Of a DNA stretch of 64,000 nucleotides, positions 920 through 43,990 are shown in pieces. Numbering within the stretch: the stretch's first letter is position 1; each line of letters starts with the position of its first letter. The notes under the pieces are model-generated. The model was not told where the DNA came from and did not search any database. It saw nothing but the letters and a program-made list of their open reading frames with translations. This DNA comes from Acidobacteriota bacterium. GTDB taxonomy: Bacteria > Acidobacteriota > Thermoanaerobaculia > Thermoanaerobaculales > Thermoanaerobaculaceae. The translations under genes were made by a program, and so were the position numbers. The stretch is from the NCBI GenBank assembly GCA_003158745.1, contig PMLC01000029.1, positions 1 to 64,000 on the forward strand, given 5' to 3'.

Positions 920-2368
920 GTGAAAAAGGCCGCGCGGTCGTCGCGCGCCCCGAATTCAGTCAAGGTCGGAATGATAGGGCTCGGGTGCGCCAAAAACCTG
1001 GTGGACGGGGAGGTCATGCTCGGTCACCTGGTTGAGCGGGGTGCGCGGATTGTGACCGACGTCAACGACGCCGAAGTCGTGATCGTGAACACTTGCGGTT
1101 TCATCGAGGACGCGAAACGCGAGTCCATCGAAGCCATCCTCGAGGTGGCGCAACGGAAGAGCGGCGGGGGCCTGCGCCGCCTGGTCGTGGCGGGGTGCAT
1201 GGCGCAGCGCTACGCCGCGGAGCTCGCCGCCGAGATCCCCGAGATCGACGCCTTCATTGGTCTGGACGAGCTGGACCGGGTCCCCGAGGCGGTGCTCGGC
1301 CGGCTGGGGCGGGCACACGTGCCCGACCAGCACCGGGCGCTGAAGCTGTACGACCATACCGCGCCGCGTCTGCTGGCGACCGGCGGGGTGTACGCCTACC
1401 TCAAGGTCGCGGAGGGGTGCGACAACCCCTGCTCGTTCTGCCACATCCCGCGCATGCGCGGGGCGTTCAGGTCGCGCACGCCGGCATCGCTGGTCGAGGA
1501 GGCCCGCAGGCTCGAGGAGATGGGCGTGCGGGAGCTCGTGCTCATCGCTCAGGACACGACGCGCTACGGCGAGGACCTCGGGCTCGGACGCTCGGGGCTA
1601 CGGCGATTGCTGGAGGACCTTCTTCGCGGCACGGCGATCGGGTGGATCAGGTTCATGTACGCATACCCGGCGACGCTGGACCACGGAATCTTCAAGCTAA
1701 TGGCGCGCGAGAGCCGGCTGGTGCCGTACCTCGACATCCCGCTGCAGCACGCCTCGCGTAAGGTCCTCAAGCTGATGAAGCGCGGCGGCGACGCCGGGAG
1801 CTACCGCGAGCTGATCGCTCGGGCGCGCCAGACGGTCCCCGAGCTTGCCGTGCGGACTACGTTCATCGTCGGGTTCCCGGGCGAAGGCGACGCGGAGTTC
1901 GCAGAGCTCGAGGCGTTCGTGGAAGAGGTCGGCTTCGACCACGTTGGAGTCTTCACCTACTCGTTCCAGGAGGAGAACCCCGGCGCGTCGCTCGGCGACC
2001 CTGTCGCGGCGCACACCAAGGAGCACCGGCGCAAACAGCTCATGAAGCGGCAGGAACGGATCAGCCGCGAGCGCAACAGGACGCTCAAGGGGAGCGAGCT
2101 CGCCGCTATCGTGGAAGGACCGAGCCCGGAGTCGGAGTACCTGCTCGAGGGACGGCTGCGCCGCCAGGCGCCGGAGGTCGACGGCCGGCTGCTGTTCTCG
2201 GAAGGAAGCGCGCGCGCCGGCGACCTCGTCGATGTCCGGATCGAGAAGACCTACGCGTTCGACCTGGTCGGGAAAATTTGCAGGGTCGTGGACCCCGCGT
2301 CTGCTCGGCGGGCACCGGCCATCCCTCAGCTCCTTCCGACGCTCCGATCGACCGCGGGCGGCGACTAG
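920..2368 (+). CDS. rimO: Ribosomal protein S12 methylthiotransferase RimO
   Basis: Radical SAM methylthiotransferase that adds a methylthio group to the conserved aspartate of ribosomal protein S12. The N-terminal UPF0004 domain begins with GLGCAKNLVDGE. The radical SAM cluster motif is GCDNPCSFCHIP (CxxxCxxC), followed by a TRAM domain near the C-terminus. At 482 aa it is slightly longer than usual (about 440), the excess being a short basic N-terminus and a C-terminal tail. The ORF is open far upstream through repeats. I place the start at GTG 920 (MKKAARS...) because a -10-like TAGAAT sits 8 nt before it; ATG 902 is the alternative. It is followed 5 nt later by ribF, suggesting co-transcription. 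MiaB is the nearest alternative, but the N-terminal motif and order favour RimO. Confidence 0.93.
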   Translation: MKKAARSSRAPNSVKVGMIGLGCAKNLVDGEVMLGHLVERGARIVTDVNDAEVVIVNTCGFIEDAKRESIEAILEVAQRKSGGGLRRLVVAGCMAQRYAAELAAEIPEIDAFIGLDELDRVPEAVLGRLGRAHVPDQHRALKLYDHTAPRLLATGGVYAYLKVAEGCDNPCSFCHIPRMRGAFRSRTPASLVEEARRLEEMGVRELVLIAQDTTRYGEDLGLGRSGLRRLLEDLLRGTAIGWIRFMYAYPATLDHGIFKLMARESRLVPYLDIPLQHASRKVLKLMKRGGDAGSYRELIARARQTVPELAVRTTFIVGFPGEGDAEFAELEAFVEEVGFDHVGVFTYSFQEENPGASLGDPVAAHTKEHRRKQLMKRQERISRERNRTLKGSELAAIVEGPSPESEYLLEGRLRRQAPEVDGRLLFSEGSARAGDLVDVRIEKTYAFDLVGKICRVVDPASARRAPAIPQLLPTLRSTAGGD

Positions 2369-2373
2369 CACCT

Positions 2374-3339
2374 ATGGAGATACTGCGCGATCCGGCGCTC
2401 TCGTCCGACCTGCCCCGCGGAGGCGTAATCACGGTCGGCAACTTCGATGGGGTCCACCGCGGCCACCAGCTGCTCCTGGCGGGAGCGGTGGAGCGCGCCC
2501 GGGAGCTTGGCGTGCCGGCCGTGGCCCTCACGTTCGACCCTCACCCGGAGAAGGTGCTGCGCCCCGGGTCGGGCCTCAAGCTCGTGACCACGAGGGCGCA
2601 GAAGGCGCAGCTCCTGGACCGGCTGGGTGTCGACACGCTGGTCGAACTCGGCTTCGACCGTAGGTTCGCCGCGACGACCGCCGCGGAGTTCGCCCGGGAG
2701 TTCCTGTTCCGCAGGCTCGCGCCGGCCGAGGTGAGGCTCGGAACCAACTTCCGTTTCGGCGCCGGACGGATGGGGGACGTGCACTTCCTCTCCGTGTTGG
2801 GGCACGACCTGGGGTTCTCGGTCGTCGGTGTGGAACCCCTGCTCGAGGGCGACGAGATGATCTCCTCGACGCGGCTCCGCCAGGAGATCGCCCACGGTCG
2901 CGCGGACGAGGTGCGGAGCCTTCTCGGTCGCCCGTACTTCGTCGATGGGAAAGTCTACAGGGGCGAACGGATGGGGCGGAAGCTCGGTTTCCCGACGATC
3001 AACGTGGAGGTCGAGAACGAACTCCTGCCGGCTCACGGCGTATACGTCACGGCCGTTCACATCCCGTCGTTCTCTCGCGTGTTCCCCTCGGTGACCAACA
3101 TCGGCGTGCGTCCGACCGTGTACGAGAACTACCACGTCACGGTGGAGAGCCACGTCCTGAACTTCGCCGGCGACGTCTATCGGGAGCCCGTTCGGCTCTA
3201 CTTCCTCAGGCGTGTCCGCGAAGAGATGGTGTTTGCCTCGAGCGTCGAGCTCGTGGCGCAGATCCGGCGCGACGCGGATGTGGCGAGCCTGTACTTCAGC
3301 CGCGAGGGTCTGCCGGAGGAGGAGCTGGTGCGGCGGTGA
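2374..3339 (+). CDS. ribF: Bifunctional riboflavin kinase / FAD synthetase
   Basis: Converts riboflavin to FMN and then FAD in the cytoplasm. The N-terminal nucleotidyltransferase domain shows GNFDGVHRGHQ and the SSTRLR motif. The C-terminal kinase domain shows RGERMGRKLGFPTIN and a GV.PTV stretch. At 321 aa it is normal for the family. The ORF in the track runs further upstream inside rimO; ATG 2374, 5 nt after the rimO stop, is the sensible start. Its stop overlaps the GTG of the next gene (GTGA), which indicates translational coupling. Confidence 0.95.
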   Translation: MEILRDPALSSDLPRGGVITVGNFDGVHRGHQLLLAGAVERARELGVPAVALTFDPHPEKVLRPGSGLKLVTTRAQKAQLLDRLGVDTLVELGFDRRFAATTAAEFAREFLFRRLAPAEVRLGTNFRFGAGRMGDVHFLSVLGHDLGFSVVGVEPLLEGDEMISSTRLRQEIAHGRADEVRSLLGRPYFVDGKVYRGERMGRKLGFPTINVEVENELLPAHGVYVTAVHIPSFSRVFPSVTNIGVRPTVYENYHVTVESHVLNFAGDVYREPVRLYFLRRVREEMVFASSVELVAQIRRDADVASLYFSREGLPEEELVRR

Positions 3340-4325
3340 ACGTGGCGCTGGCGGTCCCGGTCGCCTTCTGGGCAGTCCTCAGTGTTGCCGCGTTCCTGTT
3401 CCTGTGGCTCGATCGTTACCAGTTCGACCTGGTGCCCTGGCTGGCTGGGGTTGCAGCGTGGGGTTTTGCGGGTCCGGCGGTGCTGGCGGCGGTGGGCGCT
3501 CGGCTGCCGCAGTTGCTGACCGCCCCTGTCATGGGCAGCCCGGTTCCGGAGCTCTGGTTGACACTCCCGGCGCTGGCTGTGGTGCTCCCGTGCATCGGAG
3601 TGGCCCTGCCGGTCGCGGCGGTCGCCCGCTCGCGCTTCCTGGAGGGACCCTCGAGCGGCGCCGTCTTCGGGGTCACGGCGGGACTGGCGTTCTCGCTGGG
3701 CATGCACCTTCTCGTCGTGACACGGGCCGCCTGGCATCCGAGTCTGGCCGCGCTGGTCTTCGTGGGTCTCCTCCACGCAGCCGTCGGCGCGGTTCTCGGC
3801 GCCGGAATCGGTCTGGCCAAGCTGGCGGCGCTGCCCCATCTGCGCATCCCCGCTGTCCTGAGCGCGGTGACGGCCGCCGCCGGGATCGGCGCTCTCCTCG
3901 TCCTCGGAGCGGTCTCGTGCTGGACGAACTGGGGCGAAGTCAGCGCTGCCTGCAATCTGGCGCTCGCTGCGCTAGAACTGGCCGTCCTCCTCGGGGTGTT
4001 CGGCTTCTCGATCTCGTACGAGCGGCGAGTGCTTGCCGGTCAACTCGCCGAAGAGGTGGCCCTCGGCGTGCTACCGGGGTGGGCTGTGCAGGTTCTACCG
4101 AGCTACCGGCGCCGCATCTGCTCCGACTGGTGGGAACGGCGGGACGAACGTCGTGAGATCCTCCGGTTGCTCACGGGCCTGGCGTTCAGGAAGTACAGGC
4201 TGCGAAAGCTGCCCGAGAAGCGGGCCCGGCTGTACGGCCTCGAGGTCGGACGGCTTCGACAGCGTGCGCGTCTGCTTCTCGCGCTGCCACCGACGTCGAC
4301 AGCCGCGGCGTCGCGGGAGGAATGA
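3336..4325 (+). CDS. Polytopic membrane protein of unknown function
   Basis: A 329-aa protein, not recognised. The first 230 residues are a series of about seven hydrophobic stretches rich in Ala, Val and Leu, with short loops. The last 90 residues are basic and hydrophilic (RRRICSDWWERRDERREI) and most likely cytoplasmic. No enzyme motif is visible. The GTG start overlaps the ribF stop by 4 nt, so it is expected to be expressed with rimO-ribF. Codon use and GC match the neighbours. It is probably an inner-membrane protein; no transport or catalytic role can be assigned. Confidence 0.8.
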   Translation: MNVALAVPVAFWAVLSVAAFLFLWLDRYQFDLVPWLAGVAAWGFAGPAVLAAVGARLPQLLTAPVMGSPVPELWLTLPALAVVLPCIGVALPVAAVARSRFLEGPSSGAVFGVTAGLAFSLGMHLLVVTRAAWHPSLAALVFVGLLHAAVGAVLGAGIGLAKLAALPHLRIPAVLSAVTAAAGIGALLVLGAVSCWTNWGEVSAACNLALAALELAVLLGVFGFSISYERRVLAGQLAEEVALGVLPGWAVQVLPSYRRRICSDWWERRDERREILRLLTGLAFRKYRLRKLPEKRARLYGLEVGRLRQRARLLLALPPTSTAAASREE

Positions 4326-4352
4326 CCACAGCGGCCGCCGCGCGACCGGTCG

Positions 4353-4422
4353 TATACTGCTGTCCAAAGTCGAGCCAGGGACTGGTGGGCTAGGGTCCAG
4401 CCCAGGCTAATGGAGAGAGACC
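4353..4422 (+). promoter_or_regulatory. metK promoter and structured leader
   Basis: TATACT (4353-4358) is a plausible -10. The leader that follows can form GGGCT (4387-4391) with AGCCC (4399-4403). An outer pairing of AGCC (4373-4376) with GGCT (4405-4408) ends just before the Shine-Dalgarno GGAGAGAG. The fold could mask or expose the ribosome site. It does not match any SAM riboswitch consensus I know. Confidence 0.35.
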
Positions 4423-5619
4423 GTGAACAGCCGAGGAATCCACGTCTTCACGTCGGAGTCGGTGACCGAGGGTCACCCGGACAAGGTTTGCGACCAGATC
4501 TCGGACGCGGTGCTGGACGAGGTGCTGCGCCAGGACATCAAGGCCGACCGCGTCGGCCAGGGGCGGGTTGCCTGCGAGAGCTTCATCACCGTCGGGCTCG
4601 TTATCGTCGGCGGCGAGATCACCACCGACGGGTGGGTCGACGTTCAGGACCTGGTGCGCGGCCTGATCCGCGACATCGGCTACACCGACGCCCGGTACGG
4701 CTTCAACCATGCCACCTGCGGCATCCTCAACGCGATCGGGCGGCAGTCCGGGGACATCGCGCAGGGGGTCGACACCGGCGGCGCCGGCGACCAGGGACTG
4801 ATGGTCGGGTACGCCTGCGACGAGACGCGCGAGCTGATGCCCACGCCGATCACCCTTGCGCACAAACTGACCCGGCGCCTCGCCGAGGTGCGGCGCAAGG
4901 GTGTGCTTCCGTACCTCGGCCCGGACGGCAAATCTCAGGTGACGGTCGAGTACCGGGAGGGGAGGCCGCACCGCATCGACACCGTGGTGATCTCGTCGCA
5001 GCACACCGAGGACATCCTCAACCGGAAGGGCGACCGCATCACGGCCGCGGCGCGCGACGAGATCATCGAGAAGGTCGGCCTCGCGGTGCTGCCGAAGAGG
5101 CTGGTCGACTCGAAGACCCGGTTCCTGGTCAACCCGACCGGGAAGTTCGTCATCGGCGGCCCGCAGTCGGACACCGGCATGACGGGGCGCAAGATCATCG
5201 TGGACACCTACGGCGGCTGGGCTCCGCACGGCGGCGGCGCGTTCTCCGGCAAGGACCCGACAAAGGTGGACCGCTCGGCCACCTACATGGCCCGCCACAT
5301 TGCCAAGAACATCGTCGGCGCGAAGCTCGCGCGCGAAGCTCTCGTGCAACTCGCCTACGCGATTGGCGTTGCGGATCCGGTCTCCGTCATGGTCGATACC
5401 AACGGCACCGGCGTGCTCCCGGACGATAGGCTCACCAAGCTCGTGCGCGAGGTCTTCCCGTTGACGCCGCGCGGCATCATCAAGGAACTCGACCTGCTGC
5501 GGCCGATCTACCGGATAACTGCCAGCTACGGGCACTTCGGCCGGTCGGAGCCCGAGTTTCGCTGGGAGAGCCTCCACCACGTCGACGCCCTCAAAGACGC
5601 CGCTAAACGTCAAGGGTGA
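4423..5619 (+). CDS. metK: S-adenosylmethionine synthetase
   Basis: Makes S-adenosylmethionine from methionine and ATP. It supplies the methyl and radical cofactor used by rimO and by the radical SAM gene at the far end of the window. Family motifs are all present: [16 protein letters not shown] near the N-terminus, GAGDQGLM, and the phosphate loop [17 protein letters not shown]. Length 398 aa is typical. It starts at GTG 4423 behind a good Shine-Dalgarno (GGAGAGAG). The 3' end overlaps the convergent archease gene by 17 bp. Confidence 0.97.
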
Positions 5620-6010
5620 GCATCGCCCCGAAGCGGCCGCCGCGCCGGCGTGGGCGCAGGTCGTGGTACGTCGCCGCCTTGACCTCTATCTCGGGCATCG
5701 TGCCGGCGGGCAGCGGGCCGACCTCGAGGGTCGCCCCGGCTGCGTTCGCCTCGAAGTCCGTCGCGATCTCGTGGCGCACATACAGTGCGAACAGGGCCTC
5801 GTTCACGGCTCGCACGAGTTGTGACGGCAGGTCCTGCGGCCAGGGTCGGATCGCGAACCGGCGCCGTCCTGCGGCCTGCGGTTTCGTGCCCAGGGCCAGT
5901 GTCATAGCGGCGAGAACGGCGTTGCAGATGAGTTCGCGTTCGTTGTCGCCCCAGATCGCGACTCGCAGGTCGGCACCGTGCGCGAGGGTGCGAAACCGCG
6001 GTCGGCTCAT
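5603..6010 (-). CDS. Archease family protein
   Basis: Archease activates RtcB-type RNA ligases by promoting ligase guanylylation. The 135-aa sequence has the family hallmarks: an N-terminal HGADLRV segment with a conserved Asp, a central [11 protein letters not shown] helix, and the C-terminal [13 protein letters not shown] motif. No rtcB is in the window, so the partner must be elsewhere or absent. The gene is convergent with metK and divergent from the next gene. TAAACT stands 7 nt before its ATG, with no Shine-Dalgarno, suggesting a leaderless transcript. Confidence 0.88.
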
Positions 6011-8720: not shown

Positions 8721-9902
8721 GTGCGAACGGCCTGGTTCATCGCGGCAAGGCTGCTCCGGAGGCGCGAGACCGCCCTCCTGAGGACGAGTGCGCTCGCGGC
8801 GTTGCTGGCCGTGGCGCTCGGCGTCGCCTCGCTGGTCGTTGTGCTGGCACTGATGAGCGGCTACTCCGCGGCTCTCCGGGCAGGAGTGCTCGCTGCGAGC
8901 GGGCACCTTGTGATTCTCACGACCCCCGGCCTTCCGGCGGACCAGATTGCCGCGGCCGCGACGCGTGTCGCCGCGGTCCCGGGGGTGACCCGGGTTGGCA
9001 CGGTCGTGTACCTCCCCGGAATGCTCTTCCCGCGCACCGGTGGGAGCGCGGAGCTGGTGAGCGTCCGCGCAGGCTCTTCGCCGCCTCCGTTCGCCCACGT
9101 CCGGATCGCTGATGTCGGGGGGCCGCTTCCAGTCGCCGTGGGGCTCGGTGTTGCGCGCAGGCTCGGCGCGCGGGACGGCGATGTGCTGGCACTCCAGGTG
9201 GTGACCGGAGGTGCGCCCCGGGCCGTCACGGTGCGGGTCGGGCAGATATTTTCGACCGGTTTCGCCGAGCTGGACGAGCGGTTCATGGTGGCGGACCTAG
9301 CCGGCCTGCGCCGCCGCGTGTCGTCGTTGCCTGTGGGCGGCCTCGAGGCGTGGCTAGCTGACCCGGACCGAGCCGAAGCGCTGCGCGATCGGGTCGAGGC
9401 GGCGTGCGGCAAGGGATCCATCGTCACCACGTGGCAGGAGAGCAACCGCAACCTCTTCGCCGCGCTGCGCTGGCAGAAGATCTCCCTGGGGCTCGTGCTC
9501 TCGCTCGTGCTCGGGGTCGGCGCTTTCGAAGTGGCGTCCGCGCTCGTGGTCATGGTGACCGAGAAGCGGCGGGCGTTCGGCGTGCTGCTTGCGCTCGGAG
9601 GGCCGCCGAGTCTGGTCCGGCGGACGATCGTGCTGGCCGGGGCAGCGCTCGGTGGCGCCGGAGTCCTGGCTGGAGTGGGGTTGGGCGTGCTCGTCGTGCT
9701 CGTGCTGACGGTGCTCGGCATCCCCCGATTCCCTCCGGACATCGCCAGTATCTACATGGTTGATACCATCCCGTTGCGGCTTCTCCCTGGGGACCTTGCC
9801 TTCGTCCTGGGGCTGAGCATGGTCGAGGTCGTGCTGGCCGCAATGTTGCCCGCGAGTCGGGCCTCGCGCCGAGAACCCGTCGAGGTGCTGCGGTGGGTCT
9901 GA
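8721..9902 (+). CDS. FtsX/LolC-type ABC transporter permease
   Basis: A 393-aa integral membrane subunit of the MacB/FtsX/LolC superfamily. There is one N-terminal membrane helix (about residues 20-45), a periplasmic domain to about residue 250, and three C-terminal helices. The order and the conserved region ALVVMVTEKRRAFGVLLALGG match LolC/LolE, where the complex moves lipoproteins to the outer membrane. FtsX has the same fold but is shorter, about 300 aa. No ATPase gene (LolD or FtsE) is next to it. The downstream LytM gene overlaps by 10 bp; this pairing recalls FtsX with EnvC. I lean to LolC-like by length, with FtsX-like function possible. Confidence 0.78.
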   Translation: MRTAWFIAARLLRRRETALLRTSALAALLAVALGVASLVVVLALMSGYSAALRAGVLAASGHLVILTTPGLPADQIAAAATRVAAVPGVTRVGTVVYLPGMLFPRTGGSAELVSVRAGSSPPPFAHVRIADVGGPLPVAVGLGVARRLGARDGDVLALQVVTGGAPRAVTVRVGQIFSTGFAELDERFMVADLAGLRRRVSSLPVGGLEAWLADPDRAEALRDRVEAACGKGSIVTTWQESNRNLFAALRWQKISLGLVLSLVLGVGAFEVASALVVMVTEKRRAFGVLLALGGPPSLVRRTIVLAGAALGGAGVLAGVGLGVLVVLVLTVLGIPRFPPDIASIYMVDTIPLRLLPGDLAFVLGLSMVEVVLAAMLPASRASRREPVEVLRWV

Positions 9903-34412: not shown

Positions 34413-35846
34413 ATGTCGTTCTTACGCCGCAACGTTCTCTGGCTCTTGGCCGCGGTCCTCGCAATTCTCGCCGTCGCAGGCCTTCTCTGGTGGCGGGCGA
34501 GAAGCCAGAAGTCCCAATACGTCACGGCTGCGGTGACGCGCGGCACCATCCAGCGCAGCGTCGCCATGACCGGCGCGCTCAATCCGGTTGTCACGGTGCA
34601 GGTCGGATCCTACGTCTCCGGCACGATCAAGACGCTTGGGTGCGACTACAACACGGAGGTCGTGGTCGGCCAGGTCTGCGCGACGATCGATCCCGTCCCG
34701 TTCCAGCTCATCGTCGATCAGGACCAGGCCGCGGTGGGCGTGGCCGAGGCGCAACTGGAGAAGGATCGCGCCGCCCTGACCTACGCGAGAATCGCCTTCG
34801 AACGGGATTCGAAGCTGTTGACGCAGGGCACCGTGTCGCAGGACACGGTGGACAACGACAAGAGCGTCATGGACCAGACGACCGCCCAGATAGGTCTCGA
34901 CGAAGCGACGATCGTCAACAAAGTGGCCACGCTGAAGGCGGCGCAGGTAAACCTGGCCTACACCAACATCGTGTCGCCGGTGGTAGGCACGGTGATCACG
35001 CGCGCCATCGACGTCGGGCAGACGGTAGCCGCGAGCCTGACCAGCCCGACCCTGTTCCTCATCGGCCGGGACCTCACGAAGATGCAGGTCGACACCAACG
35101 TGAGCGAGGCCGATGTCGGCGCAGTTCGCGTCGGGCAGAATGCGCTGTTCACCGTGCAGGCATACCCGAGCCGGACTTTTCGGGGCAAGGTCACGACGAT
35201 CCGTCATGGGCCGATCACAGTGCAGAACGTCGTCACCTATGACGTCGTCGTAGCCGTGGACAACCCGGACCGCGCGCTGTTCCCCGGCATGACCGCCGAC
35301 ACCCATATCGTGATCGACGAGCACGACGACGTGCTGCGCGTCCCGTTGCCGGCGGTGCGCTTCAATCCGGAGGGTATCGGTCGCCTGCGGGGAGGCGGAT
35401 CCCGCCGAGACGAGGGACGCCCAGAGGCGCCAAGCGAAAGTGGCACCGAGACGCGCGCCGGCGAAGGTGGGCGCGCGGGCGTCGGGCAAAGGGGCAGCGC
35501 CCGCCCCGAGGAGGCCGGCAGATTTGGAGACAGGCCCGCCGGTTCGGGCTCCGGGAGGCCCGGCGGCACGGGGCGCTGGGGCGAGGGCCGGCTCGCGGGC
35601 GCGAGTGCGCGCCGCAGCCGGGTCTGGGTGCTCAGCGGCGACGGCACGTTACGCCCCGTCCCGGTTACCACGGGCATCGACGACGGCGCCTTGATCGAGG
35701 TTTCCGGCGAGGACCTGAAACCGGGCGACAGGGTGGTGGTCAATCAGGCCAACTCCTCCGAGCAGGGGCGCGCCGGTGCGAGTCCCAACCCAAACCCCGC
35801 GTTCCGCCAGGGACAGGGTCAGGGCCCAGCGGGACCGCGACTGTGA
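34413..35846 (+). CDS. MacA-like periplasmic adaptor of a tripartite efflux pump
   Basis: A 477-aa membrane-fusion protein. An N-terminal anchor (LLAAVLAILAVAGLLWW) is followed by a barrel-sandwich domain (GSYVSGTIKTLG), a helical hairpin with many Gln/Asp, and beta-barrel segments. It matches the HlyD/MacA group. Between about residues 325 and 410 there is an unusual stretch of about 85 residues of Gly, Arg, Glu and Pro, with no hydrophobic core, before the membrane-proximal end. Its stop overlaps the MacB GTG by 4 bp. AAAGGA before the ATG is a weak ribosome site. Confidence 0.9.
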   Translation: MSFLRRNVLWLLAAVLAILAVAGLLWWRARSQKSQYVTAAVTRGTIQRSVAMTGALNPVVTVQVGSYVSGTIKTLGCDYNTEVVVGQVCATIDPVPFQLIVDQDQAAVGVAEAQLEKDRAALTYARIAFERDSKLLTQGTVSQDTVDNDKSVMDQTTAQIGLDEATIVNKVATLKAAQVNLAYTNIVSPVVGTVITRAIDVGQTVAASLTSPTLFLIGRDLTKMQVDTNVSEADVGAVRVGQNALFTVQAYPSRTFRGKVTTIRHGPITVQNVVTYDVVVAVDNPDRALFPGMTADTHIVIDEHDDVLRVPLPAVRFNPEGIGRLRGGGSRRDEGRPEAPSESGTETRAGEGGRAGVGQRGSARPEEAGRFGDRPAGSGSGRPGGTGRWGEGRLAGASARRSRVWVLSGDGTLRPVPVTTGIDDGALIEVSGEDLKPGDRVVVNQANSSEQGRAGASPNPNPAFRQGQGQGPAGPRL

Positions 35847-37939
35847 GCGCGCCGAAGGAGCCGCGCGCGGTGACGGCCGACCCGGTAATCGCGGTCCGCG
35901 ACGTGACCAAGGTCTATCAGCTGGGCGACCAGGAAGTCCACGCCCTCCGGGGCATCAGGCTGACGATCGAGCGCGGTGAGTTCGTCGCCATCATGGGCGC
36001 ATCGGGTTCGGGGAAGTCCACCCTGATGAACATCATCGGTTGCCTCGACCAGCCGACCGCTGGTGAGTACCTGCTGGACGGGATCGATGTCGCCGGTCTG
36101 GATGAGCCCGCTCTGGCCCGAATCCGCAGCCGCCGGATCGGCTTCGTCTTTCAGAGCTTCAACTTGCTGGCTCGGACCAGCGCTGCTGAAAACGTCGCAC
36201 TGCCGTTGTTCTACTCGGGCCAGCTGACCGGCAGCGCCGGCAAGGTACGCGACACGCTGGCCTTGCTTGGACTATCCGACCGCGAGCACAACCATCCAAA
36301 CCAGCTTTCCGGCGGCCAGCAGCAGCGCGTGGCGATCGCCCGCGCGCTGATCAACAGCCCGACGATCCTGCTCGCCGACGAGCCGACAGGCAACCTCGAT
36401 TCGCAGACGGCCAAAGAGATCATGGGGACGATCCGGGCGCTCAACCGGGAACGCGGCCTGACGGTTGTGCTCGTCACCCACGAACGAGCGATGGCCGAGT
36501 TTGCCGACCGCGTCGTCACCCTCAGCGACGGCCTCGTCCTGTCCGACGAGCGGAAGACCGAGAAGACCGTGGCGCCCCATCTGTCGGCGACGGCAGCCCG
36601 CGACGGCCTGCAAACGGCGCCACTCTCCGAAGTGCGGTCCTTCCTCTGGATGGCGTTTCTCGCCGCCGGGCGAGGGCTCGGCCGCAACAAGTTGCGTTCG
36701 GCGCTGACCATGCTCGGCATCTTCATCGGCGTCGCCGCTCTCATCGCAATGCTGGCGGTCGGCGAAGGGGCGCGCGCGGCCCTCCAGAAGCAGCTCGAGA
36801 GCCTGGGCACCAACCTGCTCATCGTGCTGCCGGGGACGACCCGCGCCAACGGCGTGCGGGCAGGCATCGGCAGCGCCACCAGCCTCATGGTGACCGACGG
36901 CGCCGCGATCCTGGAGGAAGACTCCGCCGTCGCCGACATCAGCTACGTGAACCGCCAGTCCGCCCAGGTGGTCAACAGCAACCTGAACTGGTCGACGAGC
37001 GTGCAGGGAGTCACCCCAAGCTATCTGTCGATCCGGGATTGGCCGGTGGTCGCGGGCCGCAAGCTCGACGATCAGGACGAAGACAATGCCAGGACGGTCT
37101 GTTTGCTGGGTCAGACCGTGCTCGCCAATCTCTTCGGCGAGTTCGAGGACCCGGTGGGCGCCACCATTCGCGTCAAGAACGTGGACATGCAGGTAGTGGG
37201 CGTGCTTGGCATCAAGGGTCACTCGGCGTCGGGGCAGGACCAGGACGACACCGTCCTCATTCCGTTCCGCACGTCGCAGGAGAGGGTCCTTGGGTCGGCC
37301 GCCCCCAACTCGGTGCAGAGCCAGTCGACGATTTTCTTCACGCCGCCCAATCCGTTCGGCATCCAGCCCAAGCTGACGGGGTTCGTGCACACCATGTACG
37401 TGCAGGCGCGCAGCACGGAGCTGGTCAAGACGGCGCTGCAACAGGTGACGCAGACGCTCGAACGGCGTCATCGGATCAAGCCCGGTCAGCCCGACGACTT
37501 CGCCGTGCGCGATCTGACCGAGATCGCCGAGGTGGCGGAGGCAAGCAGCCGCGTCATGGAGCTGCTGCTCGCCGCGATCGCCTCGATCTCGCTTCTCGTC
37601 GGCGGCATCGGCATCATGAACATCCTGCTCGTCTCGGTCACCGAGCGCACGCGGGAGATCGGCATTCGGATGGCGATCGGTGCCCGGCGCGTTCACGTCC
37701 TTCTCCAGTTCCTCATCGAGGCGGCACTGCTCAGCCTGATGGGTGGCGGGGCCGGCGTGCTGACCGGCGCCGTCGCATCGAAGGTCATCTCGCGGGTGGC
37801 CGGCTGGCCGACGTTGCTCCATCCGATGGTGGTGCTCGCGGCCTTTCTGTTCTCGGCGGCGATCGGCCTCTTCTTCGGGTACTACCCGGCGCGTCAAGCC
37901 TCCCTGCTGAATCCCATCGACGCCCTGCGCTATGAATGA
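35843..37939 (+). CDS. MacB-type ABC transporter (ATPase-permease fusion)
   Basis: A 698-aa protein. The N-terminal ATPase has GASGSGKST (Walker A), LSGGQQQR (signature), ILLADEPTGNLDS (Walker B) and the VTHE switch. A first membrane helix near 285 (ALTMLGIFIGVAALIAMLAVG) opens a MacB-type periplasmic domain, followed by three C-terminal helices. MacB proteins drive outward transport of macrolides, peptides or heme-like compounds through a TolC-type channel. It starts at GTG 35843, overlapping the adaptor stop, and its stop lies beside the outer-membrane factor gene. Confidence 0.93.
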   Translation: MSAPKEPRAVTADPVIAVRDVTKVYQLGDQEVHALRGIRLTIERGEFVAIMGASGSGKSTLMNIIGCLDQPTAGEYLLDGIDVAGLDEPALARIRSRRIGFVFQSFNLLARTSAAENVALPLFYSGQLTGSAGKVRDTLALLGLSDREHNHPNQLSGGQQQRVAIARALINSPTILLADEPTGNLDSQTAKEIMGTIRALNRERGLTVVLVTHERAMAEFADRVVTLSDGLVLSDERKTEKTVAPHLSATAARDGLQTAPLSEVRSFLWMAFLAAGRGLGRNKLRSALTMLGIFIGVAALIAMLAVGEGARAALQKQLESLGTNLLIVLPGTTRANGVRAGIGSATSLMVTDGAAILEEDSAVADISYVNRQSAQVVNSNLNWSTSVQGVTPSYLSIRDWPVVAGRKLDDQDEDNARTVCLLGQTVLANLFGEFEDPVGATIRVKNVDMQVVGVLGIKGHSASGQDQDDTVLIPFRTSQERVLGSAAPNSVQSQSTIFFTPPNPFGIQPKLTGFVHTMYVQARSTELVKTALQQVTQTLERRHRIKPGQPDDFAVRDLTEIAEVAEASSRVMELLLAAIASISLLVGGIGIMNILLVSVTERTREIGIRMAIGARRVHVLLQFLIEAALLSLMGGGAGVLTGAVASKVISRVAGWPTLLHPMVVLAAFLFSAAIGLFFGYYPARQASLLNPIDALRYE

Positions 37940-37976
37940 GATTGATGACGCGAGACCGGTGGAAAGGGGCTGGCGC

Positions 37977-39464
37977 GTGACGACTCGATTGACCAGAGCG
38001 ATGAAGAGGATTCGAGGCGGCGCCGCGTTCGCCTTCTGCCTGGCACTGACGCTGGCGCTCGACGGCTGCCTCGTGGGCCCGAGCTTCAACCGGCCGGCGC
38101 CTCCGGACGTTGCCGCGTACCTGCCGCCGGAATCTCCGGCGGCGCAGCCGGAGAGCGGCGCCGACGCGGCGCAGCACATCGCGCTCGGAGAGCGCATCCC
38201 GGCGCAATGGTGGGCGTTGTTCCACAGCTCGCGCCTCGACGAGACGCTGCGCCAGGTCATCGCCGCCAACTACACGCTGGCCGCGGCCAAGGCCACCCTC
38301 GCGCAGGCCCAGGAGGCGATCGTCGAGGCCCGCGCCGCGCTCTACCCGCAGGTCGACTTCGGCGCGTCGGCGCGCCGTTCGAGGTCCTCGACGGGGTTCG
38401 GCACGACTGCGAGTCTCTTCTCCTTCGGCCCCAGTGTCAGCTACTCGATCGACGCGTTCGGGGGGGCACGGCGACACATCGAACAGGAAACGGCTCTCGC
38501 GGAGAACCAACGCTACCAGCTCGACGCGGCGTACCTCACCCTGACCGGTGGCTCCGTCACTCAGGCGATCACCATCGCCTCGACGAACTTCCAGATCGCG
38601 ACCGTGCAGGACCTGATCAGCAACGATCAAAAGAACCTCGACCTCGTGCAGGGTGAGTTCGACGCCGGCAAGGTGGCCCGGAGCGAGGTGCTGACCGCCG
38701 AGGCGCAGCTGGCGGGCGACCGCACGCAACTGGCTCCGCTGCATCAGCAGCTGAGCGTCGCCCGTCATGCGCTGGCCGTTCTTGCCGGCCAGGCCCCGGG
38801 CCGGTGGGCGCCATCGGATTTCGCGATTGACGAGCTCACACTGCCCGAAAACGTGCCCGTCAGCCTCCCTTCGGAGCTCGTCCATCAGCGCCCCGACATC
38901 CTGGCTTCGGAGGCGTTGCTCCACGCCGACAGCGCGGCGATCGGAATGGCGACCGCGCAGCTGTACCCCTCGATCACTCTCTCCGCATCCCTCAGCCAGG
39001 AGGCGCAGTCGCTCGCCAGTCTGGTGCGCTCGGCGAGCCGGGCATGGGATGCGAGTGCAGGCGTCGACGCGCCGTTGTCCCGCGGGGGCGCCCTGCGAGC
39101 GCAGCAGCGCGCCGCGATCGACGCGTACAATGCCGAGCTCGCGACCTATCAGCAGACGATTCTGCTGGCCTTCGGCCAGGTGGCGGACGTCTTGAGCGCT
39201 CTCGAGCACGATGCCGAGCTAGTGTCAGCGTCCCACCGCTCGGTCGACATCGCCGGCGCCTCGCTGGCGCTGCAACGATCAGGCTATGCGGCGGGGAAGA
39301 CGAGCGCGCTCCAGTTGATCGTCGCCGAGAACACCTATTCCAGCGCGCGCCTCGGCTACGTGCGCGCCATCGGCCAGCGCCTGTCGGACACGGCTCAGCT
39401 CTTCATCGCCCTTGGCGGCGGCTGGTGGAACGAAGGCGATTCGGCGCTGTTTTCCGGGTCGTAG
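37977..39464 (+). CDS. NodT-family outer-membrane efflux lipoprotein
   Basis: TolC-like outer-membrane factor of the MacAB pump, 495 aa from the start chosen. A lipoprotein signal ends in LALDGC, with the cysteine to be lipidated, followed by GPSFNRP, the usual NodT opening. Two OEP-type repeats follow, with coiled helical segments (SRLDETLRQVIAANYTLA, SELVHQRPDILASEALL). I place the start at GTG 37977 because AAAGGGG precedes it; ATG 37932, which overlaps the macB stop, is the alternative and would give a 46-residue leader. Last gene of the Spy-MacA-MacB-NodT group. Confidence 0.9.
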   Translation: MTTRLTRAMKRIRGGAAFAFCLALTLALDGCLVGPSFNRPAPPDVAAYLPPESPAAQPESGADAAQHIALGERIPAQWWALFHSSRLDETLRQVIAANYTLAAAKATLAQAQEAIVEARAALYPQVDFGASARRSRSSTGFGTTASLFSFGPSVSYSIDAFGGARRHIEQETALAENQRYQLDAAYLTLTGGSVTQAITIASTNFQIATVQDLISNDQKNLDLVQGEFDAGKVARSEVLTAEAQLAGDRTQLAPLHQQLSVARHALAVLAGQAPGRWAPSDFAIDELTLPENVPVSLPSELVHQRPDILASEALLHADSAAIGMATAQLYPSITLSASLSQEAQSLASLVRSASRAWDASAGVDAPLSRGGALRAQQRAAIDAYNAELATYQQTILLAFGQVADVLSALEHDAELVSASHRSVDIAGASLALQRSGYAAGKTSALQLIVAENTYSSARLGYVRAIGQRLSDTAQLFIALGGGWWNEGDSALFSGS

Positions 39465-39682: not shown

Positions 39683-41398
39683 ATGAGCGAGCGAAGATAC
39701 TCGGAACGGTGGCGGTCCGATCCGCGGTGGCTGCGAGCCGCCGCGTTGGGTAGCGTGTGGGCGGCGTCGGAGATCATCCTTGGCAGCTTCCTGCACAACC
39801 TCAAGGTCCCTTTCCGTGGTCACGCACTCACTGCAATTGCGGTGCTCCTGGTTTCGGGAGCCCAGCGGAGGTGGGGGCAGCGGGGCGTCGTCGCCCGTGC
39901 GGGGCTCGTCGCCGCGATCATGAAGTCGGCCTCGCCGAGCGCGGTGCTGCTCGGCCCGATGCTCGCAATCGGCATGGAGGGATTCGCCTTCGAGCTGGGC
40001 CTCGCCCTCGGAAGGGGAGGACTGTTTGGGTGCCTGATAGGCGGCGTCCTCGCGATGTCGTGGACATTGCTGCATCTGCTCCTCAGCCTGCTCCTCAGCT
40101 ACGGCGGCAACCTCATCGAGGTTTACCGCCAGCTCGTTCTCCTTGCCGGGCAGCAGTTGGGCCCCGTACCGGCCGGCGCAGCAGGTCCGATCGCTGTCCT
40201 CGCGCTGATTAACATGTCGATCGGCGCCGCAGCCGCTCTTACCGGTTGGCGGGTCGGCGGCCGCACCGACGCCACGACCTCTTCGGTGGCCGCAGCGGCG
40301 TCGCCCCCGCGGCAGGTGTACCGACCCGCCGTCACGGCCCGTCCGAGCCTCATCATGCTCGTGCTCGTCGTCGTCGCTCTTCCGCTGGGACTGGTGGCCC
40401 TGTCCCGGGTGACGCTGCCGGTGGCGTGCGCAGGCATGGCGGCCGCGCTCGGAGCCGGCGCGCTCCGTTACCGGAGAGCGTTTCGCCGACTCGCGAGGCC
40501 CGGGTTCTGGATAGGTGTGCTGACGATCGCCGTGACCGCCATGCTGGTTGGAAGGTTAGCGTCACGGCAGTCGCTGGGCCTGGCAATCTCCGTCGGCGCC
40601 GCAATGGTGCTGCGGGCGATCTTCGTGGCCGCGTGCTTCGCGTCGATCGATGTCGAGCTGGCGCATCCAGGCCTGCGGGCCTCGCTCGAGCGTCACGGAG
40701 CGGGATCGCTGCTGGGCGCCGCCGAGGCAGCGTTCGCCACGCTCCCCGAAATCATCGCGAGCGTACCCTCCGGCCGGGACCTCGTGAGGCGGCCGGCTGC
40801 AGCTCTCGCGTCGATGCTTCCCAGGCTGGACGCCCTGGTGGACGGATTCACCCCCGACCCAGAACGGGGCCGGGTTGTCGTCCTCACCGGCGAACGGGGG
40901 TCGGGGAAGACCACGCTCGCCGCGGAGACCGTCGAGCGTCTTCGAGGAGCGGGCTTCAAGGTCGGTGGCATCTTGGCGCCGGGCACCTTCCGCGACGGGA
41001 CGCGTTTCTCGTTTGATCTCTTGGACCTTGCCTCGGGCGACAGTCTCCCCTTCGGCTGTCGTGAGCCGCGGCAGGGATGGTCCGAGGAGAAGTGTTTCTG
41101 GGTGAACCCGGCAGGGCTCGCGCTCGGTCGCGTTGCGCTCGCTCGCTCCGAGGTGGACGTGGTTGTCGTGGACGAGGTGGGGCCGTGGGAACTGGTGGGG
41201 TCCGGTTGGTCCCGCGACCTCGATGCGCTCGTCGGTCGAGGGGTGCCGCTCCTCATTGTGGTGCGCCACGCGTGTCTCTCGGCTGTGGTTTCGCGGTGGC
41301 GCCTGGAAGGCGCGCCGGTCTTCGAGGTGAGCGAGGCCAGCGCGGACCGGATCGCGGAGCTGCTCGTGGCGGCGGCGGCGCGCCGGCCGCCCCACTAG
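39683..41398 (+). CDS. Membrane protein fused to THEP1-type NTPase, ECF-like
   Basis: A 571-aa protein with a rare layout. Residues about 20-190 hold about five helices resembling an ECF transporter substrate-binding (S) component. Residues about 220-370 hold further helices and an amphipathic ending (EAAFATLPEIIASVP) recalling an EcfT-type coupling protein. The C-terminal 175 residues are a THEP1-family nucleoside triphosphatase with GERGSGKTT (Walker A) and VVVDEVGPWEL (Walker B). It may be a self-contained uptake system driven by the NTPase, but the S/T resemblance is by layout and feel, while the NTPase call is firm. Start ATG 39683 has only a weak ribosome site; ATG 39635 is possible. 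The gap from the NodT gene is about 220 bp. Confidence 0.75.
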   Translation: MSERRYSERWRSDPRWLRAAALGSVWAASEIILGSFLHNLKVPFRGHALTAIAVLLVSGAQRRWGQRGVVARAGLVAAIMKSASPSAVLLGPMLAIGMEGFAFELGLALGRGGLFGCLIGGVLAMSWTLLHLLLSLLLSYGGNLIEVYRQLVLLAGQQLGPVPAGAAGPIAVLALINMSIGAAAALTGWRVGGRTDATTSSVAAAASPPRQVYRPAVTARPSLIMLVLVVVALPLGLVALSRVTLPVACAGMAAALGAGALRYRRAFRRLARPGFWIGVLTIAVTAMLVGRLASRQSLGLAISVGAAMVLRAIFVAACFASIDVELAHPGLRASLERHGAGSLLGAAEAAFATLPEIIASVPSGRDLVRRPAAALASMLPRLDALVDGFTPDPERGRVVVLTGERGSGKTTLAAETVERLRGAGFKVGGILAPGTFRDGTRFSFDLLDLASGDSLPFGCREPRQGWSEEKCFWVNPAGLALGRVALARSEVDVVVVDEVGPWELVGSGWSRDLDALVGRGVPLLIVVRHACLSAVVSRWRLEGAPVFEVSEASADRIAELLVAAAARRPPH

Positions 41399-41563: not shown

Positions 41564-43990
41564 ATGTTCAGGATCATCACGGACGCCAAGCAGTTCCGCG
41601 AGTACGTGTTGCTCCGAGACGGGGAGGGCGTGCTGCTCCGTATGGCGACGCCTGCGGACGTGCCGGCCATCGACGCGCTCCTCGCCAGGGTGTCCCGGCA
41701 GAGCCTGCGGATGCGATTCATGGGCGGGATGGCCCAGGCTCCCCGCCAGTTCGTAAGCGGGCTGTGCGGCGAGGATTTGCGGGACCGCGCCTGTCTCCTG
41801 GCGGTGATCGGCGAGGAGCCTGAGGTCAGGATCGTCGGCTTCGGCAACTACGTCGGGCTCGGTACTCGCAACACCGCCGAGGTGGCGTTTCTGGTGGACG
41901 ACGAGTTCCAGGGCCGGGGGATCAGTACGCTCCTCCTTGAGCGCCTCGCCGGGCTCGCCGCCGGGGTCGGGTTCGTCGGCTTCGAGGCCGACGTGCTCTT
42001 CGAGAACCAGCCGATGCTCAACGTGTTCCGCGATTCCGGGTTCGAGGGGCGCCAGGTGATGGACGGTGGCAGCTACCACGTCGAGTTCCCCGTCGCCGGA
42101 GCGGTTGCGCTCCGCGAGAGGGCCGAGTTGCGGGAGCAGATCGCCGCCGCCGCCTCGGTGGCCCGCCTCCTGCGCCCTCGCGTCGTGGCGGTGGTGGGCG
42201 CCTCGCGCGAGCCGGGCGGCGTCGGCCACCTCATCTTCCGGCACATCCTCGCCAGCGACTTCACCGGGACGGTGTACCCGGTCAACCACCAGGCGGCGTC
42301 GGTGCACGGCGTGCGGGCGTACCCGAGTGTCGCCGAAGTTCCGGAGAAGCCGGACCTGGTCGTGGTGGCCGTCCCCGCCGCGAAGGTCGTCCAGGTGGTG
42401 GAGGAGGCGCTCCGCGCCGGGGCCGGCGGCCTCGTCGTCGTGACCTCCGGGTTCGCCGAGGCCGGGCCGGACGGCGCGGCGCTGCAAGCCCGCCTGGTAG
42501 ACGTCGTGCGCTCCCAGGGCGCGCGCCTCGTGGGGCCGAACTGTCTCGGCCTGCTCAACACGGACCCTGAGATCAGCCTCAACGCCAGCCTCGCGCCCAC
42601 GCTGCCGCCGTTGGGCCGGGTCGGTTTCTTCTCCCACTCGGCGGCGCTCGGGGTCGTGATCCTGCAATACGCGGCCGAGCGCGGGCTCGGCTTCTCCACG
42701 TTCGTCTCGGCGGGGAACAGGGCCGACGTTTCCGGCAACGACCTGCTGCAGTACTGGGAGGAGGACCCGGCCACCGACGTCGCCATGCTCTACCTGGAGG
42801 CGTTCGGCAACGCGCGCCGCTTCGCGCGCGTCGCGCGCCGGGTCGCGCGGCGCAAGCCGGTGCTGTGCGTGAAGAGCGCCCGCAGCCGCGCCGGGCTGTC
42901 CGCGGCCCGCGCCCACATCGGCGCGACGCCGCTCTCCGACGTGGACGTGGACGTGCTCTTCCTCCAGGCCGGCGTAATCCGCGTGGACACCCTCGAGGAG
43001 CTCTTCGACGCCGCGGTCCTGCTGGCCCACCAGCCGCTGCCGGCGGGGAACCGCGTCGCCATCGTGGGCAACTCCGGAGGGGTCGTCACCATCACGGCCG
43101 ACGCCTGCGAGGCCCGTGGGCTGGAGGTGCCGAAGGCGGGGCTCGTCGACCTCGGCGCGCTGGCTGGCCCGGAGGACTACCGGCACGCCCTGCAGAAGGC
43201 GCTCGAGGACCCCGGAGTGGACGCGGCAATCGCGATTTTCCTCTGCGTCGGCAAGTGCGACCCCGAGCTCGCGGCCCGCGGGATCCGGCGCGGCGTGGTC
43301 GGCGCCGAGAAGAAGAGCGGCGTCGCGAAACCGGTGCTGCTTTGCCTCATGGGCGCGACCGGGCTCGTCAACTTTGCCTTCGAGCACGGAGGTGCGGCCG
43401 CCGACCGCAAGACCACGTTCCCCTCGTATCGCTTCCCCGAGGCGGCCGCCCGCGCCCTCGCGCACGCCGCGGCGTACGCTGCCTACCGCCGCCAACCGCC
43501 GGGCCGGCTGGTCTGGTTCGATGATGCCGACCCGGCCGCCGCGCGCAAGAAGCTCGAGGCTGCCCTGGCCGGCGGCGTCCCGGCAGAGGGAGTGACGTGG
43601 CTCAACGGCGATCAGGCGGCCGGGATCCTGAGTTGCTTCGGCATCGAGGCGTTGAGCGGCGGCTGGATATCCGGGCGCGACTACGTCCTCGGCGTGAGCG
43701 TCCGCCCGCACCCCGACTTCGGCCCGCTCGTCGTCCTGCGGCGCGGCGAGGAGCCCGTCGTCGAGCGAATCACCCCTCTGACCGACCAGGACGTGCGGGG
43801 GATGCTCGATGCGGTGGGCCTGCCGGTCGACGGCGGCGAGGCCGAGCTGCTGTGCCGGCTCTCGCAGCTCGTGGAGGAGCTTCCGTGGCTGGCCGAAATG
43901 CACGGCGACCTGGTGCCGGCGGCCCCGGGCGGGAGCGGCAAGCCGGCGCTGGGCGGCGATCTACGCGTCGCGTTCACCGCGCCCGCCTGA
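41564..43990 (+). CDS. GNAT-acyl-CoA synthetase (Pat-like) lysine acetyltransferase
   Basis: An 808-aa protein. Residues about 5-180 are a GNAT acetyltransferase domain (DDEFQGRGISTLLL acetyl-CoA loop). The rest is an NDP-forming acyl-CoA synthetase, with a CoA-binding fold (VVAVVGASREPGGVGH) and ligase domains (GPNCLGLLN, FFSHSAALGV, CVKSARSRAG, RAHIGA). The C-terminal ATP-grasp is about 100 residues short and lacks the usual Lys/His ATP segment, so the ligase half should be a sensor, not an enzyme. Pat proteins with an N-terminal GNAT acetylate and inactivate acetyl-CoA synthetase. GGAGG precedes ATG 41564. acuB- and acuC-like genes follow. Confidence 0.88.
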   Translation: MFRIITDAKQFREYVLLRDGEGVLLRMATPADVPAIDALLARVSRQSLRMRFMGGMAQAPRQFVSGLCGEDLRDRACLLAVIGEEPEVRIVGFGNYVGLGTRNTAEVAFLVDDEFQGRGISTLLLERLAGLAAGVGFVGFEADVLFENQPMLNVFRDSGFEGRQVMDGGSYHVEFPVAGAVALRERAELREQIAAAASVARLLRPRVVAVVGASREPGGVGHLIFRHILASDFTGTVYPVNHQAASVHGVRAYPSVAEVPEKPDLVVVAVPAAKVVQVVEEALRAGAGGLVVVTSGFAEAGPDGAALQARLVDVVRSQGARLVGPNCLGLLNTDPEISLNASLAPTLPPLGRVGFFSHSAALGVVILQYAAERGLGFSTFVSAGNRADVSGNDLLQYWEEDPATDVAMLYLEAFGNARRFARVARRVARRKPVLCVKSARSRAGLSAARAHIGATPLSDVDVDVLFLQAGVIRVDTLEELFDAAVLLAHQPLPAGNRVAIVGNSGGVVTITADACEARGLEVPKAGLVDLGALAGPEDYRHALQKALEDPGVDAAIAIFLCVGKCDPELAARGIRRGVVGAEKKSGVAKPVLLCLMGATGLVNFAFEHGGAAADRKTTFPSYRFPEAAARALAHAAAYAAYRRQPPGRLVWFDDADPAAARKKLEAALAGGVPAEGVTWLNGDQAAGILSCFGIEALSGGWISGRDYVLGVSVRPHPDFGPLVVLRRGEEPVVERITPLTDQDVRGMLDAVGLPVDGGEAELLCRLSQLVEELPWLAEMHGDLVPAAPGGSGKPALGGDLRVAFTAPA

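Follow-up and report, generated by a model that had tools for sequence, protein, structure and literature searches.

A candidate importer of the molybdenum cofactor in Acidobacteriota: a one-chain, ECF-related membrane protein with a THEP1-type NTPase domain

Introduction

ECF transporters are known systems, whereas an importer of the molybdenum cofactor (Moco) is not known, as far as the literature searched shows; no bacterial Moco transporter was found in the open-licence literature that we searched. Searches of the same literature for a link between ECF transporters and Moco, or between THEP1 and transport, also returned none, which is not proof of absence. Solitary S components of the BioY and BtuM types function without an ECF module. 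A survey of about 5900 organisms found 305 bacteria that have Moco-dependent enzymes but lack a complete Moco pathway, a combination left unexplained (PMC6147048). According to a review of Moco movement, uptake of exogenous Moco has been neither examined nor observed outside Caenorhabditis elegans (PMC9793310). The THEP1 enzyme of Aquifex aeolicus is soluble, and its function has not been known since its structure was solved (PMC1079890). That structure was assigned to the ASCE NTPases rather than to the kinases, the purified enzyme hydrolyses ATP at just 5e-3 per second, and a Walker B motif with Asp-Glu is part of the family description (PMC1079890).

Here, we analysed a stretch of 64,000 nucleotides (the window; contig PMLC01000029.1) from an Acidobacteriota bacterium of the order Thermoanaerobaculales, in which one gene joins two membrane blocks to a THEP1-type NTPase. 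The reading that we favour, and consider moderately probable, is that this gene encodes a one-chain ECF-derived importer scavenging Moco (the Mo or W pyranopterin cofactor) or a close derivative. Genomes, loci and families are cited by our own labels (G, L and f).

Results

Architecture of the fused protein

The gene at 39683..41398 on the forward strand encodes a single protein of 571 aa, a fusion of S-like, T-like and THEP1 parts. Its likeliest start codon is the ATG at 39683, upstream of which the open frame extends into a TolC-type gene ending at 39464. The S-like membrane block spans residues about 13-193 (39719..40261, forward strand) and is supported by hhalign, invariant columns and the Foldseek match to 5edl. 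The T-like membrane block spans residues about 222-389 (40346..40849, forward strand), was placed by sequence comparison and is without a C-terminal coupling motif. The THEP1-type NTPase domain (PF03266, PF10649) occupies residues about 396-560 (40868..41362, forward strand), with the Walker A motif GERGSGKTT at residues 403-411 (40889..40915, forward strand) and the Walker B motif VVVDEVGPWEL, whose Asp-Glu is typical of THEP1, at residues 494-504 (41162..41194, forward strand). The predicted structure of membrane residues 1-393 has a mean pLDDT of 88.4 and a pTM of 0.82; it contains helices at 14-192, a linker of lower confidence at about 193-222, helices at 223-325 and then short helices to 389. 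A Pfam and NCBIfam search gave no family match for the fused membrane part.

A search for the same fusion, proposed in the first-pass annotation, returned full-length co-linear homologues from about 70 down to 34% identity. Those in other Acidobacteria share about 70, 69 and 53% identity with the window protein, and others occur in Gemmatimonadota (49%), Elusimicrobia (39%), Deltaproteobacteria (38%) and Aminicenantes (about 34%). Their presence across five lineages indicates that the fusion is real and old and does not stem from a frame that is open by chance.

Directly upstream of the fused gene, MacA-, MacB- and TolC-type genes stand in a row at 34413-39464, probably an unrelated efflux set. 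At 41564-43990, one protein combines an acetyltransferase-like N-terminus with an ADP-forming acyl-CoA-synthetase-like remainder, as read by eye. Assigning a function from the window gene's neighbours was dropped because neighbours vary even inside the genus.

Split relatives and ECF ancestry

Two families of the window's order, f1 and f2, carry S and T in separate genes, arranged as double ABC ATPase, S, T~THEP1. In these operons, the ATPase gene (440 aa) encodes two ABC_tran domains, S is about 190 aa long and T~THEP1 about 375 aa, and the last two genes overlap by 4 bases. The split T of L008 lies above the curated CbiQ cut-off (PF02361, E = 1.1e-6, 28.9 bits vs 25), and a second split T nearly reaches it. 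A further set, in G285, consists of THEP1 (first gene), AA', S and T, with a divergent DUF364/DUF4213 gene.

The S-like block aligned with the split S genes over 186 columns (hhalign 99.7%, E = 3e-25), and residues E30, G34, P43, G46, K81, G141 and G181 are invariant in the fused and split forms. The sole sensible Foldseek match of the membrane model was the ECF S component 5edl, with a probability of 1.00, a TM(target) of 0.56 and an rmsd of 4.2 over 187 columns, but an E-value of 0.67. MFS proteins, the top Foldseek matches of the whole membrane model, were rejected (rmsd >20, probability <=0.44). One split S gave a sub-threshold match (5e-4) to the S-type family Trep_Strep. A profile search of the S half against the sequences of solved structures returned chance matches only, and no S component of known substrate was matched by sequence. 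There is thus moderate support for the S-like block adopting the six-helix S component fold of ECF transporters.

The T-like block aligned with split T over 125 columns (hhalign 89%, E = 2e-6), the alignment halting before the RVRS...ALRGH region, and positions 204-358 of the fused-family profile (A2) matched the EcfT-type protein of G285 at 8.6e-8. Against Pfam, the fused T-like block had no direct CbiQ match. In profile searches against solved-structure sequences, split T found weak EcfT matches (0.49 and 0.76) and the fused T half chance matches only. Modelled alone, the T half had no Foldseek match among solved structures, and its identity as T therefore rests on sequence. Structure prediction, named as a check in the first-pass annotation, was favourable for the S half, which resembles 5edl at an E-value of 0.67, and not for the T half.

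By sequence comparison, then, the membrane blocks of the window protein appear to be ECF-derived. This bears out the earlier description of one S-like and one T-like block, which are homologous to the S and T genes of an ECF operon, and also of ECF-likeness as such, given the split T above the CbiQ cut-off with a double ABC ATPase adjoining it.

Lost coupling motif and the THEP1 domain

The C-terminus of split T carries the motifs AHRVRS and AAALRGHS, which we take, from what is known of EcfT, to be the Arg motifs through which T would bind the ABC ATPases; the segment NAQRARG of an EcfT in the PDB aligns to the first. The fused T ends before the ALRGH motif, and of the first motif it retains just RRP. 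Among the genes adjacent to fused genes, no ABC gene was found, although an ABC partner may lie elsewhere in the genome. That the fused protein relies on a general ECF module was rejected on the distribution of CbiQ: CbiQ-type proteins are missing from four genomes with fused or S+T genes (G117, G066, G383 and G385), and the sole CbiQ of the window's genome (G000) sits in a NikR-CbiM-CbiQ-CbiO set that is dedicated to Ni/Co. This uptake set, with a NikR-like regulator, CbiM, CbiQ and CbiO, is located at L093 (G000:C51), 1939-5971.

The attached NTPase was correctly recognized in the first-pass annotation. Residues 399-559 match PF03266 (THEP1/NTPase_1) with an E-value of 1.7e-20 and 74 bits vs a cut-off of 23.9, and the profile, Walker A and Walker B with the catalytic Glu are all present in the window protein. 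The same residues match DUF2478 (PF10649) more weakly (1.7e-9, 37.9 vs a cut-off of 22.3), and the MobB profile scored 15.7, under its cut-off of 26.6.

THEP1 is a repeated partner of S/T. It is joined to T in the split form and to S-T in the window protein, it is a separate gene overlapping or adjoining S+T in G177 and G066, and in G072 it stands separately inside a Mo-hydroxylase operon; the Flavobacteriaceae homologue L028 has no THEP1 attached. At L030, L031 and L033 (Acetothermia/Bipolaricaulota), which are NTPase-only matches, no S or T match was found nearby, so these are generic THEP1 genes and the THEP1 family has other uses. There, the stand-alone THEP1 adjoins alanine-racemase-like and FAD-oxidoreductase-like genes. 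An NTPase apart from any membrane partner, which the first-pass annotation had held to count against its reading, was thus encountered in these generic THEP1 genes and not in relatives of the membrane part.

The same annotation had assigned THEP1 the role of driver in place of the ABC ATPases. The co-occurrence of THEP1 and ABC ATPases in the split form indicates that THEP1 is no substitute for them; moreover, THEP1 is a separate gene beside S/T in G285, G177 and G066 and is not attached in L028. Of the proposed one-chain ECF-like transporter driven by THEP1, the ECF-derived chain is supported and the THEP1 drive is not. A one-chain transporter of any substrate that runs on THEP1 in place of ABC ATPases would fit the missing adjacent ABC genes, the lost ALRGH motif, the four CbiQ-free genomes and the commitment of the only G000 CbiQ to nickel/cobalt. 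This is nonetheless unlikely, in view of the split relatives that hold both kinds of ATPase, the separate or unattached THEP1 elsewhere, the very slow ATP hydrolysis by Aquifex THEP1 (PMC1079890), and stand-alone S genes, which suggest that S may work without an ATPase. We likewise consider it unlikely that THEP1 is the energy source of transport.

The lost ABC genes and coupling motif, together with the T-half model that matches no fold, could also describe a former transporter that has become a membrane-anchored sensor or an assembly platform for Mo enzymes. We regard this as improbable: the residues of the S half are strongly conserved between the fused and the transporting split forms, and a TonB receptor adjoins a fused gene.

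Molybdenum and tungsten gene neighbourhoods

Of 37 genomes, 12 have a Mo-enzyme gene within 5 kb of their S/T genes, where 0.67 would be expected (p = 9e-12); after close relatives were collapsed, 9 remained (p = 4e-8). Both p-values are optimistic, the genomes being related metagenome assemblies. The operon annotated in G072 contains genes for MocA-like, MoCoBD large subunit, 2Fe-2S, FAD, S, DUF364/4213, XdhC and THEP1 proteins; G269 and G314 were assigned to the same type by gene layout and MoCoBD position, the annotation itself having been done on G072. In G122, formate dehydrogenase and FdhD genes accompany S+T and a ModE-like regulator. G161 has S with 2Fe-2S, MoCoBD and FAD-type subunits, and G145 has the order molybdopterin oxidoreductase, S, MobA-like gene. 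A molybdopterin oxidoreductase is near S or S+T in G257, G028 and G388, a molybdo-hydroxylase directly follows the ECF operon in G005 and G007, and a MocA-like gene adjoins T~THEP1 in G018. S-only members of the family occur in Mo-enzyme operons with no neighbouring T or ABC genes.

Among the fused genes, that of L024 lies 2 to 5 kb from a molybdopterin oxidoreductase gene, and those of L025 and L027 have a DUF364 gene directly 5'. The window gene has no Mo gene among its neighbours (MacAB-TolC upstream, an acyl-CoA-synthetase-like gene downstream), and most fused genes likewise have no adjacent Mo gene. We consider a link between the S/T family and Mo/Moco highly probable. The suggestion in the first-pass annotation that an imported nucleotide-like compound is processed fits this molybdopterin link.

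Two further gene arrangements were observed at these loci. A selenocysteine tRNA and a SelB-like gene lie between the fused gene and a formate-dehydrogenase-like gene in L024 (4938-6985). In L088 (4383-7781), a frame of 1132 aa combines a molybdopterin oxidoreductase with a class-V aminotransferase and adjoins a histidine-specific methyltransferase gene of the ergothioneine type.

Carriers and gaps in the Moco pathway

The window's genome, 96% complete, has no MoaA, MoaC, MoaE or MoeA, and contains three molybdo-hydroxylase gene sets with intact domains and the catalytic KGxGE, as well as XdhC and a MocA-like gene. Among the carriers in the order, MoaC is absent in 15 of 16 and MoaA and MoeA are also absent in 14 of 16, with MoCoBD_1 enzymes (molybdo-hydroxylases) present in all 16. 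MoaC is present in 8 of the 11 non-carriers and absent in 3, one of which (G017) has no MoCoBD_1 gene, the other two (G008 and G029) being fragmented assemblies. The difference in MoaC absence between carriers and non-carriers of the order is significant (Fisher p = 6e-4, and 2e-4 among molybdo-hydroxylase carriers), as it is among 347 genomes sampled evenly across the phylum (12 of 21 carriers vs 38 of 326 others, p = 2.5e-6), although the genomes are related metagenome assemblies and p-values that treat them as independent are optimistic. The carriers without MoaC are spread over families f1, f2, f27, f38, f56, f70 and f83, which argues against one inherited event. About one third of all carriers have MoaC (e.g., G066, G117, G331, G382 and G285), so the system serves more than auxotrophs.

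MoaE is absent throughout the order, including in MoaC-positive genomes, and is thus uninformative here. G001, G010, G011, G013, G014, G016, G019, G023 and G024 have MoaA, MoaC and MoeA but no PF02391 MoaE, so the order may use a divergent molybdopterin synthase.

G012 and G381, which keep MoeA and lack MoaA and MoaC, show what import of metal-free molybdopterin would predict. If molybdopterin in this form, or cPMP, were imported, THEP1 or DUF364 would take over absent steps such as that of MoeA; this reading could further draw on the distant similarity of THEP1 to MobB and DUF2478 and on an earlier prediction that DUF364 handles pterin-like compounds. The MoeA-less genomes would, however, then require an undiscovered Mo insertase, and we hold this alternative to be improbable compared with the import of Moco itself.

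A Moco riboswitch and TonB receptors

A single Moco riboswitch (RF01055, 63.2 bits vs a cut-off of 36) was found, at L086 in G192, on the reverse strand at 8765-8889. G192 is without MoaA, MoaC, MoaE and MoeA. The riboswitch is directly 5' of a TonB-receptor gene and on the strand of that gene; the S gene diverges from the same region, so that the riboswitch is not ahead of it. Its P3 stem is absent, a form of the Moco riboswitch that Regulski et al. associated with the tungsten cofactor (PMC2408646). Control of the E. coli moaA RNA needs MoeA, that is, the finished cofactor, and TonB goes unmentioned in the text of this original riboswitch paper (PMC2408646). No other Moco riboswitch was present in the loci scanned, the window included; the riboswitch search suggested by the first-pass annotation thus yielded this one case.

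At L024, a TonB-receptor gene ends 4 bases upstream of the fused gene, and among the four receptors compared, this one is closest to the L086 receptor (215 bits, vs 72 for a receptor adjacent to a nickel system). In L095 (G012:C49), a NikR-like regulator, a TonB receptor and further ECF-type genes are clustered, probably a nickel uptake set that includes a receptor in the outer membrane.

These receptors would also suit a metal chelate. An ECF-derived importer of molybdate, tungstate or a metallophore-type chelate, with DUF364 handling the chelator, would have the identical Mo/W neighbourhoods, and DUF364/DUF4213, a family tied to rare-metal transport (PMC2954201), adjoins several members; strong ModA-type matches were not found in the order carriers. 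We nevertheless consider such a substrate rather unlikely. Most order carriers have no MoeA, MoaA, MoaC or MoaE, which leaves no known path from imported molybdate to the cofactor, and the class of riboswitch detected beside one S gene depends in E. coli on MoeA activity, and so on Moco rather than molybdate (PMC2408646).

Discussion

Proposed pathway

We propose a pathway for cofactor scavenging in which Moco or the tungsten cofactor (Tuco) is the substrate with reasonable probability, and in which the S/T family presumably acts in import. Passage through the outer membrane would depend, in some genomes, on a TonB receptor. At the inner membrane, Moco would be bound and carried across by the S-like half. 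In the split forms, the ABC ATPases would drive transport via T; in the fused form, the drive may be capture at the inner side, or THEP1, and the T-like half may be a remnant or a modified scaffold. At the inner face, THEP1 might perform an ATP-dependent capture of the cofactor or its hand-over to MocA/XdhC and the apo-enzymes, MocA and XdhC then finishing the cofactor for the hydroxylases. That THEP1 acts on the cofactor at all is a tentative proposal, slightly short of an even chance. A role as cofactor-trapping kinase was rated lower, since the Aquifex structure was assigned to the ASCE NTPases rather than the kinases (PMC1079890). The boldest version seems to us doubtful: one polypeptide would bring intact Moco or tungsten cofactor over the inner membrane without any ABC ATPase, with THEP1 supplying the power or acting as the gate. 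Moco is chemically fragile outside proteins, and this counts against the Moco-import reading.

Comparison with known systems

Uptake of outside Moco has its precedent in Caenorhabditis elegans, which obtains it from dietary bacteria and is the only case named in PMC9793310; C. elegans is an animal, however, and its uptake of Moco has not been linked to an ECF-type protein. ModABC, WtpABC and TupABC supply the same enzymes as the system proposed here, but they are classical ABC oxyanion importers, and the order carriers have no strong ModA-type matches. The THEP1 of Aquifex aeolicus shares with the window domain its Walker A, the DE-G-P-x-E-L Walker B, domain length and profile; it is soluble, whereas the window THEP1 is the tail of a putative membrane transporter protein. 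Solitary S components (BioY, BtuM) resemble the S-only members of the S/T family in standing without adjacent T/ABC genes, but there is no sequence match, and the window protein additionally has a T-like block and THEP1.

ECF transporters are matched by the split relatives, whose operon combines a double ABC ATPase with S and T and among which one T exceeds the CbiQ cut-off, and the S half resembles 5edl in fold. The window protein differs from them in having S and T in one chain with THEP1 attached, in standing without an adjacent ABC gene and in its lost coupling motif, and no Mo/Moco context has been reported for ECF transporters in the open-licence literature searched. The S/T family joins orphan molybdoprotein bacteria, Moco uptake and the role of THEP1 in one testable proposal, and places a candidate transporter gene where the Moco pathway is missing. 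Were import driven by THEP1, it would represent a new mechanistic type of bacterial cofactor importer and would give THEP1 a role. If the proposal is true, Moco would join vitamins and Ni/Co among the substrates of ECF-type transport, and the fused protein would be an example of an ECF unit that shed its ABC ATPases.
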